Source: Paraburkholderia sp. Tr-20389
GTDB lineage: Bacteria > Pseudomonadota > Gammaproteobacteria > Burkholderiales > Burkholderiaceae
Length of the DNA stretch: 64,000 nucleotides
NCBI RefSeq assembly: GCF_017104565.1
Contig: NZ_JAAGPD010000051.1
Location: 1 to 64,000 of the forward strand
Reading direction: 5' to 3'
The notes beneath the pieces are model-generated. The model was not told the DNA's origin. It worked only from the letters and a program-made list of their open reading frames with translations, and ran no database searches. The position numbers and the translations under genes were made by a program. How positions within the stretch are numbered: position 1 is the stretch's first letter; each line of letters begins with the position of its first letter. Below are positions 39,316 to 41,866 of this stretch, one piece after another.

Positions 39316-39876
39316 TCACCGTTTCGCCGACACCGCCACCTGCGAGCCGTCGCTTAACGTGAGGGTTTTCGTGCTGCCGTTGGTGGGCATTGTGAAGCGC
39401 AGCACCTGGCTCACGCTCGTATAGTTTGGACACTTGAGCGACTTGCCGTTGTTCGACACGGTCTTGGTGCCCTTGGGCGTTTGTGCCTGGAAGTTCATCT
39501 GCACGGTGGCCGTGCCGTCTTTCGCGACGACGGGTGCGAAGCGGATCTGCGTCTGCCGGATCATCGCGCCGTTGGGATCGAGGGGCAGCGACGACAGGTC
39601 CGGGCAATCGCCGTCGACGGCGACGGGGCCGCCGGGCGGCACGGTTTTCCAGGTGAAGTCGTCGGACTCGCCCGAGCGGATGGTGCGTGTTTCCTGCGAG
39701 TTGCCGAACTGCTTCGACGTGACCTTGACGGTATAGCGGATGGGACCATCCGTGGCTGCCTGCGACGTGACGGTGATCGGCGTCGCTGCGTGCGCCGGCA
39801 ACACGGCGAGCGCAAGCGTTGCGCATGCGAGAGAAGCCACAACAGAAACGGCGGGAAGTTTGACGCTGATGCTCAT
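39316..39876 (-). CDS. Secreted protein of unknown function
   Basis: A 186-residue protein with a clear signal peptide (SVVASLACATLALAVLPAHA, cleavage after AHA near residue 30). The mature part is beta-rich and polar (ATPITVTSQAATDGPIRYTV, GESDDFTWKTVPPGGPVAV) with two cysteines, in DGDCPDLSS and SLKCPNYTS, that could form a disulfide. It resembles small periplasmic proteins seen in Burkholderia, but I do not know a function. GAGG lies 8 nt before the ATG at 39876; the frame continues upstream into the repeat element and those residues are not real. The large palindrome at 40036-40845 occupies its upstream region, so its promoter must lie in the 160 bp between, or within the repeat. Confidence 0.75.
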   Translation of the reverse strand: MSISVKLPAVSVVASLACATLALAVLPAHAATPITVTSQAATDGPIRYTVKVTSKQFGNSQETRTIRSGESDDFTWKTVPPGGPVAVDGDCPDLSSLPLDPNGAMIRQTQIRFAPVVAKDGTATVQMNFQAQTPKGTKTVSNNGKSLKCPNYTSVSQVLRFTMPTNGSTKTLTLSDGSQVAVSAKR

Positions 39877-40035
39877 ACTGTCACCTCGTTGTTGGGCAGC
39901 TGCTTGGGCATCTGGTGCGGTGTTGTCGCGCTTTTTGCCTGGCAGCGGTTTTTTTTGCATGATGCACGTGAAGTCTAACGCCAAGTGTGGCGTGTGTGGC
40001 GCGGTGTTTCCCCCGCTTGTCATGAGGTCGTTTTT

Positions 40036-40845
40036 CTTTGTCTGCGACGTAGTCGCCGGTTTGGTTTTGTTGCTGGCGGGCGCCTTGGTTTCGCTGGCAT
40101 CCGCGGTTTCCAGCGCTGGCATCCGCGCGATGTTGTCTTGTTTCATGCGTTGCCCCTGTGCGGGGCGGCACCTACTTTTCTTTGCAGCGGCAAAGAAAAG
40201 TAGGCAAAAGAAAGCCGCTAACACCGCTAGCCCTTGTTCCTGCCTGCGGGACCCCGACGGTTCTTACGCTTCACGCGGCAACCCACTTGTTTGCGCCCGT
40301 TGCCAGCGGGCTACCTGCACGCATCACCCGCTTCACACTCCCGCGTCGCCGACTGCGTTACCAGACGTCTACCGCCGCCCAGGTGGCAAACTGTGTGTAG
40401 GCTGTCGCGATGGAAGTGCACCACTCCGGACTGAAAAGCGGATCGGTGTCGTAGTATCGCCAACGCATACGGCGCGACAAGCTACACACAGTTTGCCACC
40501 TGGGCGGCGTAGACGAATCGCTGCCGCTAGCTGCGCTACGGGTGACTGGAGTGGGTGATGCGCCTGTTCGAGGCGCTGGCAACGTGCACAAAACAAAGTG
40601 TTGCCGTGTGGAGTGCGGGACCGGTTGGGGGCCCGCAGGCAAGTACAAAAGCTGGCGGTGTGAGCGGCTTTCTTTTGCCTACTTTTCTTTGCCGCGGCAA
40701 AGAAAAGTAGGTGCCGCCCCGCACAGGGGCAACACCAGCAAACCAGAAGCAAAACGCGGATGCCAGCGCCAGAAATCGCGAATGCCAGCAAAACCAAGGC
40801 GCCCGCCAGCAAAAAATCCAAACCGGCGACTGCGTCGCAGACAAA
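40036..40845. repeat. Large imperfect palindrome (two ~375-bp inverted arms)
   Basis: The left arm (about 40036-40409) and right arm (about 40474-40845) are inverted copies around a unique 64-bp centre. The best-kept block is 40149-40219 against the complement of 40663-40733: one mismatch in 71 bp. A second is GCCGCCCAGGTGGCAAACTG (40375-40394) against 40489-40508. Each arm contains a nested hairpin, CCTACTTTTCTTTGC with GCAAAGAAAAGTAGG (40171-40204 and 40678-40711), the right copy a perfect 34-bp palindrome. Each also has GCCCC..GGGGC (40152-40166 and 40716-40730). The right arm ends a few bases from the stop codon of the dehydrogenase gene. Open frames inside it on both strands encode near-identical peptides and are artefacts of the symmetry. 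From memory the core is dispersed in Paraburkholderia genomes. Confidence 0.85.
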
Positions 40846-40849
40846 AAAA

Positions 40850-41866
40850 TCAAAACCCGGTCAACACCAGCTTCCCAATCGCCCGCCCTTCTTCAAGCAG
40901 CTTGTGCGCGCGCCGCACATTCTTCGCATTGATCTTGCCAAGATCCTCCCCAACGGTAGTACGCAAAATCCCCGCGTCGATCAGACGCGCCACTTCCGTC
41001 AGGAGCTTATGCTGTTCGATCATGTCAGCCGTGCCGAACATCGACCGCGTAAACATGAACTCCCAGTGAAATGCCGCGCTCTTCGACTTCAACAGCTCGA
41101 TGGGAACCGGCTTCGCATTCTCGACGATCGTCGCAATGCCACCCTGCGGCTTGATGACGGCAGCCGCCGCCGGAAAATGCCGATCGGTGTCGTTGAACAT
41201 CAACACGTAATCCACCTGCTCGAAGCCAATCTGCTTCATCTGCGCAGGCATGTCGCCGAAGTGATCGACGATGTGATCCGCGCCCAACTCCTTCGCCCAC
41301 TTCGCCGACTCGGGCCGCGACGCCGTCGCAATCACCGTCAGCTTCGCCAGCTGCTTCGCGAGCTGGATGCCGATCGACCCAACCCCGCCCGCGCCGCCGA
41401 TGATCAACACCGTCTTGCCCGCGTCCGTACCCTGCGGCGACACGCCCAGACGGTCGAACAGCGCCTCCCACGCAGTGATCGCTGTCAACGGCAACGCAGC
41501 AGCGTGTGTGAAATCGAGCGACGCCGGTTTGCGGCCCACAATCCGCTCGTCGACCAGATGAAACTCGCTGTTCGCGCCCGGCCGCGTAACGCTGCCCGCA
41601 TAGAACACGGAGTCGCCCGCCTTGAACAACGTCACGTCCGGCCCGACGGCTTCGACGATCCCCGCCGCGTCCCAACCGAGCACGCGCGGCGTCTTCTCAA
41701 CCGTGTCCTTCGGCGAGCGAACCTTGTAGTCCACCGGGTTCACGGAAATCGCCTCGACCTTCACGAGAATGTCGTGGCCCGTCGGCTGCGGTTTGTCGAG
41801 TTCAAGGTCGACAAGCGACTCGGGATCGTCGATGGGAAGGTATCGGGTCAGTCCAACGGCTTTCAT
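40850..41866 (-). CDS. Zinc-type alcohol dehydrogenase-like / quinone oxidoreductase family protein
   Basis: A 338-residue medium-chain dehydrogenase/reductase. The N-terminal GroES-like domain is recognisable in VKVEAISVNPVDYKVR and LGWDAAGIVEAVG, and the NADPH-binding Rossmann domain in VLIIGGAGGVGSIGIQLAKQ. The structural-zinc cysteines and catalytic zinc ligands of true alcohol dehydrogenases are absent, as in quinone oxidoreductase-like members, so it probably reduces quinones or enones with NADPH. AAGGAG lies just before the ATG. It is divergent from a LysR gene 176 bp away, which likely controls it. Its stop abuts the palindromic repeat, which may end its transcript. Confidence 0.85.
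   Translation of the reverse strand: MKAVGLTRYLPIDDPESLVDLELDKPQPTGHDILVKVEAISVNPVDYKVRSPKDTVEKTPRVLGWDAAGIVEAVGPDVTLFKAGDSVFYAGSVTRPGANSEFHLVDERIVGRKPASLDFTHAAALPLTAITAWEALFDRLGVSPQGTDAGKTVLIIGGAGGVGSIGIQLAKQLAKLTVIATASRPESAKWAKELGADHIVDHFGDMPAQMKQIGFEQVDYVLMFNDTDRHFPAAAAVIKPQGGIATIVENAKPVPIELLKSKSAAFHWEFMFTRSMFGTADMIEQHKLLTEVARLIDAGILRTTVGEDLGKINAKNVRRAHKLLEEGRAIGKLVLTGF

Follow-up and report, generated by a model that had tools for sequence, protein, structure and literature searches.

What kind of element is the palindrome of about 810 bp that lies between a DUF6013 gene and an alcohol-dehydrogenase (ADH)-type gene of Paraburkholderia sp. Tr-20389, in the 64,000-nucleotide stretch of DNA analysed here (the window), and how do its copies come to be alike? 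The first-pass annotation had offered three readings: a passively mobilised element, perhaps moved by a RAYT-type transposase, a transcription insulator, or a source of structured RNA.

Anatomy of the palindrome

Comparison of the two halves confirmed that the palindrome is real: positions 40149-40219 match the reverse complement of 40663-40733 over 71 bp with 1 mismatch, an A/C difference within a hairpin loop. The near symmetry described by the first-pass annotation holds, with the ends of the symmetric element moved from 40036-40845 to 40033-40849. Its arms are indeed inverted copies around a unique centre, although they measure 377 bp and not 375 bp, and the centre (40410-40472) 63 bp and not 64 bp. 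With one arm turned over, 40033-40409 and 40473-40849 are identical at 312/377 positions (83%), and this identity is as uneven as had been noticed, reaching 101/119 in the tail, 70/72 in the core, 106/149 in the interior and 35/37 in the centre stem. Each arm carries the GCCCC/GGGGC stem and a 34-bp hairpin (40171-40204 and 40678-40711) that had been reported, the loops of the two hairpins not being the same (AGCG versus CGCG). The right end, placed earlier a few bases from a stop codon, directly adjoins that of the ADH gene (40849, next to the complement of 40850-40852). The features are as follows.

40033..40849, no strand: whole palindromic element, two 377-bp inverted arms and a 63-bp centre, with relatives genome-wide
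40033..40151, + strand: left outer tail, with a T-rich run, GTCTGCGACGTAGTCGCC, a T/G-rich stretch and two copies of CGCTGGCATCCGCG
40152..40223, + strand: left arm core, A type, with a GCCCC hairpin (40152-40166) and a 15-bp hairpin (40171-40204, loop AGCG)
40206-40213, + strand: putative mirror third strand of the left arm core, AAAAGAAA
40214-40219, + strand: lock of the left arm core, GCCGCT, complementary to AGCGGC at 40186-40191
40224..40372, + strand: left interior, which varies more than the rest of the arm and matches the right interior at 106/149 positions
40373..40409, + strand: left strand of the conserved centre stem, CGCCGCCCAGGTGGCAAACTGTGTGTAGGCTGTCGCG, 95% complementary
40410..40472, no strand: centre loop, with the conserved CACTCCGGACTGAAAAGCGGATCGGTGTCGTAG
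40473..40509, - strand: right strand of the centre stem, by inverted-repeat match
40510..40658, - strand: right interior, from the pair build and the arm comparison
40659..40730, - strand: right arm core, A type, loop CGCG, with a hairpin (40678-40711) and a GCCCC hairpin (40716-40730)
40663-40668 and 40669-40676, - strand: lock and putative third strand of the right arm core, in the same layout as in the left arm
40731..40849, - strand: right outer tail, with GTCGCAGACAAAAAAA at its end, adjoining the ADH stop codon
40850..41866, - strand: alcohol-dehydrogenase-type gene whose stop is abutted by the element (Pfam PF13602, PF08240, PF00107)
39316..39876, - strand: DUF6013 gene downstream of the element (Pfam PF19476)

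The string CCTACTTTTCTTTGC occurred 4 times (at most 2 mismatches) versus 0.05 expected from shuffles. Folded as RNA, the whole element reached -607.7 kcal/mol versus -328 +/- 9 for 20 shuffles, an energy that a long inverted repeat gives by construction. Open frames are present on both strands of the window element, and a coding function was rejected, no gene of at least 70 aa being called by our own gene finder inside any of the 104 elements described below.

A dispersed family at shared sites

The core is not confined to the window, and the proposed dispersed family was borne out by 247 arm cores in the own genome (G000; 8,997,065 bases, 9.0 Mb, in 129 contigs). The 32-bp core of the A type was found in 100 copies (46 on one strand and 54 on the other), of which 96 were exact and four had one mismatch when three were allowed, and the same pattern read backward gave zero matches in this genome. 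A second arm type, B, had 147 copies, exact in all of those listed (100 of 147), and a 25-bp stretch common to both types had 251 copies with at most one mismatch. Among the loci fetched around these cores, 104 distinct complete elements were recognised, their arms paired facing outward, together with 19 unpaired arms, several of them at contig ends or beside insertions. As B cores were fetched among the matches listed (100 of 147), some BB elements of the own genome are absent from this set; from the 247 arms, we estimate roughly 120 elements in all.

Analysis of the 104 elements revealed a fixed build of outer core, interior, centre stem-loop, interior and outer core, with a pair span, both cores included, of 571-580 bp in 102 of them and of 558 and 600 bp in the remaining two. 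The arms were paired as AB or BA in 61 elements, as BB in 29 and as AA in 14. We rejected the whole-element hairpin as the constrained unit, since A arms combine with B arms almost freely, mixed pairs being slightly in excess, and linkage between distant sites is near background.

An autonomous long version was also discarded, the 1.73-kb copies at two own loci (L116 and L071) being elements with an insertion sequence inside, which we take to be of the IS5 type. This insertion lies within the B-arm hairpin in the two own copies (L116, about 1313-2489, and L071) and in six elements of the relative G139 (L212, L214, L215, L216, L222 and L223); in L116 it holds a 317-aa transposase frame and is flanked apparently by a CTTA duplication. 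The element is thus a landing site for this insertion sequence. Tandem or nested partial elements, such as unequal exchange would leave, were seen at L028/L029, L074 and L063. Several cores were also located no more than a few hundred bases from contig ends in G170, G728, G165 and the own contigs C21, C36, C41 and C57, and the elements seem to break genome assemblies.

The spread of the family was followed in nested samples. The 20-bp common core occurred in 82 of 98 genomes of the genus, with 0 to 479 copies per genome and 16 genomes without any, and a looser A-type pattern in 38 of 200 genomes of the family, distributed over 4 of 25 genera. The sister genus g357, which we take to be Burkholderia, had two to four copies in 19/22 genomes, among them a low-copy palindrome of the same plan (L273, about 1500-2151) located 3′ of a transporter gene, presumably encoding an ABC-transporter ATPase. 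The spacing of the arms in this genus is 0.6-0.7 kb or 2-4 kb, depending on the genome. Among 120 genomes of the order, the 25-bp stretch common to both arm types was found in one genome besides the own, as a single match in the same family, and among 369 genomes of the class, hardly any of them of the own order, the exact A-type palindrome was found in the own genome only. A wide taxonomic spread was therefore rejected as far as sampled, the order and class samples being nearly empty outside the family. Megaplasmids of P. caribensis, P. largidicola, sp. PGU19 and sp. 22B1P carried the element at at least 39-40 places each and that of P. phymatum at four, plasmids of Caballeronia and Burkholderia and small P. 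terrae plasmids gave partial matches, and the phages searched gave none.

Mobilisation by a RAYT, as suggested by the first-pass annotation, found no support because the sole Y1-transposase gene found in the genome (PF01797, at C12:60223) is unlinked to the elements and is present in zero-copy genomes. No core, hairpin or centre motif was detected with up to 3 mismatches in its 3.3-kb locus (L203), where it occupies about 1459-2166 as a lone RAYT-like gene beside another gene, presumably glutamate-synthase-like. PF01797 was recognised in 97/98 genomes of the genus, mostly over model stretch 8-109, versus 82/98 for the core, and G128-G130 and G143 possess the gene and have no core copy. The lone RAYT-like gene looks domesticated.

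The available text of Nunvar et al. 2010 (PMC2817692) describes REP, BIME and REPIN sequences, associated with RAYT, as abundant intergenic palindromes with inverted pairs and complementary stem changes, all of which recur in the present family. REP/REPIN-RAYT is thus the nearest known kind, yet the defining features that were tested fail. The inverted pair usual for a REPIN measures about 100 bp, whereas that of the window family spans 571-580 bp, and no rayt flanks its elements. A REP carries a GTAG/GGAG head at the foot of a 20-40-bp palindrome; before the GCCCC hairpin, A arms read GTAGGTGCC and B arms GTAAGTGCC, the latter lacking a GTAG head. Unlike a REP, finally, the arm core combines a hairpin with a putative mirror third strand and a lock.

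Whether the elements still move was approached through the sites occupied in relatives. In G139, at least 18 of 20 element sites were also occupied in the own genome: flanks on both sides matched an own element locus in 17, and the 18th (L228) was occupied by a further own element. In G172, at least 11 of 20 sites were shared. The remaining sites were L214 and L223 in G139 and nine in G172, and both counts are lower bounds because B cores were fetched only among the matches listed (100 of 147). Flanks at shared sites were about 82-96% identical, and at one G139 locus (L225) both matched the window's own site. Recent mobility was thus not seen, and independent re-insertion at the same gene ends seems far-fetched given the number of shared sites.

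The sequences of the elements did not follow their positions. In the 18 site pairs in which the element was intact on both sides, out of 28 matched (the other ten having an interrupted, partial or missing element on one side), the same-site element took ranks anywhere from 3rd to 95th in the set of 104 own copies. Its mean rank was 44.9 for G139 (n=10) and 49.6 for G172 (n=8), and the ranks were indistinguishable from a uniform distribution (KS p=0.75). Mean identity within three genomes was 0.860, 0.865 and 0.844 (200, 66 and 120 pairs) and between them 0.843, 0.781 and 0.776 (200 pairs each), the difference for the nearest relative being small (0.860 versus 0.843, sd 0.02-0.04). Linkage at 93 two-state sites of the 104 copies fell from an r2 of 0.335 at 1-5 bp to 0.077 at 31-60 bp and, beyond 100 bp, to 0.016-0.020, near the 0.010 (1/n) of independence; the strongest distant pair of sites had an r2 of 0.28. 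Because same-site copies were no closer than random ones and linkage was lost beyond 100 bp, positions shared across species and sequences homogenised within each genome amount to concerted evolution by short exchanges, in tracts that these sequences place at the order of 100 bp or less. The uneven conservation, attributed earlier to gene conversion or selection on structured blocks, fits either or both. Among the G139 elements (L209-L228), the top within-genome identity was 1.0, two copies at different places being identical.

These data bear on a non-autonomous, MITE-like or REPIN-like mobile element copied by a transposase that is perhaps now silent, the likeness of copies then reflecting bursts of transposition. 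Such an origin would account for the range of copy number between species (0 to 479), for the paired inverted ends and for the window site. At that site, one of 80 named loci fetched for relatives of the adjacent dehydrogenase gene has the element: in Burkholderia sp. Ac-20365 it stands immediately behind the same stop codon, with a different gene beyond. Two sites, in P. piptadeniae and P. fungorum, read as empty, with a native 3′ spacer where the element stands here. The elements at sites shared with relatives are nevertheless no closer kin than random copies, conservation inside copies is uneven, recombination between sites is near-free, the sole RAYT-like gene is unlinked and also present in zero-copy genomes, and comparison by eye of the window with P. 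piptadeniae and P. fungorum revealed no direct repeat, hence no target duplication, at this one site. We consider this origin unlikely. MITEs, ERIC, Correia and NIME elements are short, non-coding and dispersed, with inverted ends and mosaic arms. The window family resembles all four in being short, non-coding and dispersed with mosaic arms, and MITEs in its terminal inverted repeats (arms 83% inverted copies, many tails ending in GTCTGCGACGC after a T run). It departs from these elements in that no target duplication was found at the one site studied and in its conserved sites with concerted evolution.

The arm core and its predicted fold

The outer core was the most uniform part of the copies. 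Over the 47 nt compared, one sequence was common to 74/89 A arms and 110/119 B arms, and diversity over the 104 copies was 0.231 in the interior versus 0.002 in the first 20 columns, which include the GCCCC hairpin. The core was also kept in elements of G214 (485-489 bp), G134 (470-473 bp) and G191 (488-489 bp), the interiors of which gave local scores of 21-22 against the own interior, versus 20-21 for shuffled sequence and 487 for own against own. Since it is kept where interiors align no better than shuffled sequence, the core is constrained beyond homogenisation.

Covariation was assessed in 39 of 45 distinct arms, six being left out, including the insertion-interrupted L212 and L214; the rows are related and the structure model was drawn from the same sequences. 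Pairing of the hairpin reached 98.5%, and both partners had changed at 4 of its 13 pairs; the GCCCC stem is uninformative here because it never varies. The stretch following the hairpin would pair with its loop and the first two bases of its 3′ strand, forming a lock, and both-side changes occurred at lock pairs 40-67 (14 sequences) and 41-66 (10 sequences). The covariation score was 0.175 versus 0.075 in shuffles and 0.011-0.084 with the partners slid, while two of the five measures were not above shuffles (7 versus 5.9 both-side-changed pairs, 14 versus 16.1 further pair types). Pairing of the lock was 78.9%; of its outer pairs, 36-70 was unpaired in 29 of the 39 rows and 38-69 in 16, and lock pairing failed in the types with a TCTTC loop. 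In an independent count over 28 distinct pairs of loop and lock strings, mean complementarity was 3.32 versus 2.62 +/- 0.18 when the strings were redealt, with 0 of 1000 redeals as high. Covariation therefore supports retention in the core of a 13-15-bp hairpin, the loop of which would pair with a downstream strand in a lock of the pseudoknot type.

A purine run separates the hairpin from the lock, and in 35 of 38 parsed rows it is a mirror image of the hairpin's purine strand. It takes three states (AAAGAAAA with AAAAGAAA, AAAGAGAA with AAGAGAAA, and AAAGAAA with AAAGAAA) in related rows, so that these are not 35 independent events. Mirror and direct repeat could be distinguished in 23 of the 35, and no parsed row showed a direct repeat that was not also a mirror. 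By triplex geometry, this order would fit, on one DNA strand, a third strand running antiparallel to the purine strand; on the other, it would fit a U/C-rich third strand running parallel to it. The mirror layout would thus permit a pinned triple helix, for which 7-8 mirrored bases or triads are short if it is to be stable. H-DNA mirror repeats and U-A-U triple-helix RNAs such as the MALAT1 element likewise involve a purine/pyrimidine mirror repeat and a third strand. The window family is like them in having a mirror repeat beside a hairpin and a geometry that fits a third strand, and unlike them in having only 7-8 mirrored bases.

The core also bears on whether the elements are purely selfish or neutral recombination-prone palindromes, persisting by exchange alone and of no benefit to the host. 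Concerted evolution, the microsatellite-like tails and the 16/98 genus genomes without a core copy, with many others having few, would be expected of such repeats. They would not be expected to retain the core in subfamilies whose interiors cannot be aligned, to show compensatory changes in both hairpin and lock, or to persist at low copy number (2-4) in 19/22 sister-genus genomes, and we regard this explanation as possible but somewhat doubtful.

Gene 3′ ends and candidate roles

The preference for gene ends suggested by the first-pass annotation was confirmed, a stop codon facing 89 of 96 elements. In these 96 of 104 elements, whose neighbours were callable with a home-made codon-usage gene finder, flanking genes were convergent in 42, tandem in 47 and divergent in 7, versus 7, 33 and 8 among the 48 gene junctions of the window, a small set that includes the element's own junction. 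For the 137 sides with a gene end facing the element, the median distance from stop to core was 125 bp, about the length of a tail, and many tails begin with a T run and GTCTGCGACGC shortly after the stop codon. A TTTT was present within 20 nt after the stop on 71/104 element sides (nearer than 260 bp) versus 2/38 other gene ends of the window. The tail motif GTCTGCGACGCAGTCGCC had 92 copies in the genome with at most 2 mismatches, versus 6 for its backward control, and in the fetched own loci, which were chosen around cores, it appeared in 84 distinct contexts, all within 400 bp of a core.

A terminator-like hairpin followed by a T run was found in 37 of 104 tails read inward and in 0 read outward, compared with 13% of shuffled tails and 11/38 ordinary gene ends. 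As this exceeds the shuffles and is about the level of ordinary gene ends, termination is not specially supported. In some longer tails, inspection by eye revealed an ordinary hairpin-plus-T-run terminator between the stop codon and the element.

Each arm might instead encode a small RNA, the palindromes then forming a structured regulatory RNA family, as suggested by Rfam RF02421, which aligns over 40701-40815 with 36 bits (E 9.2e-7 in a 221-base search). RF02421 (Bp1_684) corresponds to the Burkholderia sRNA candidate Bp1_Cand684_SIPHT of an sRNA screen, the available text of which includes Bp1_Cand684 in its RT-PCR panel (PMC3521395). The arm shares AGAAAAGU....GCCGCCCCGC.CAGGGGCRACGC with it. 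Differences are that, in the accessible part of that source, the candidate is listed at one B. pseudomallei locus, shown with pdhB and lpdA, and is not called an arm of a palindromic repeat (PMC3521395). The two scores, however, were 36.0 and 33.9 bits, below the curated gathering cut-off of 44, and some 250 arms in a single genome are unlike a trans-acting sRNA, which makes a regulatory RNA family quite unlikely. Sub-threshold miRNA and snoRNA matches of the element were taken as chance. RF02421 is the only relative found in the literature searched. Core strings and topic searches of open PubMed Central papers (PMC7186790 included) retrieved no relevant paper in the text available, and the part available of a study of stem-loop families in 40 genomes (PMC2267715) does not contain the word Burkholderia.

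Taken with the shared sites and the constrained core, the position at gene ends leads us to favour, as the probable reading, a high-copy non-coding Paraburkholderia family that undergoes concerted evolution, has a structural core and is kept by the host as two-sided 3′ boundaries. The arm core would fold as a locked hairpin or a triple helix, in DNA or in RNA at 3′ ends, and the folded core could pause or break replication or transcription. A stalled or broken core might then seed RecA-type repair from another copy; exchange would be densest around the cores, which would explain why they are the most uniform part. The host may retain the elements as a terminator, an insulator or an mRNA end for the genes on both sides, and this boundary retention is weaker than the sequence of fold, stall and repair. 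The arrival of copies at new sites, reflected in copy numbers from 0 to 479 in the genus, lies outside the model. A narrower form, in which every arm core makes up a pinned intramolecular triple helix that stalls polymerases at gene ends, marks both 3′ boundaries and, on breakage, triggers copying from other elements, is tentative and rather doubtful. If true, more than 100 dispersed boundaries would be kept alike, the structure itself sustaining a structural code in nucleic acid throughout the genome.

Gene conversion of dispersed bacterial palindromic repeats has been a question since the early REP work, and Higgins reportedly asked in 1988 whether REPs evolve in this way. In the present family, species can be compared site by site, with position shared, sequence exchanged sideways within the genome and linkage lost near 100 bp, so that it becomes directly testable how fast, by what machinery and to what end ectopic exchange occurs in bacteria. 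The covarying hairpin, the lock and the mirrored third strand provide a concrete candidate for a folded motif. The family also explains why an Rfam sRNA matches below threshold and may explain gaps in the assemblies of these genomes.

Lastly, the outer tails (for instance at L020, L089 and L217) contain short tandem repeats of TTTTGG, GATGGCATCCGGTTCTGTTGCC and others, and these repeats vary between species at the same site.
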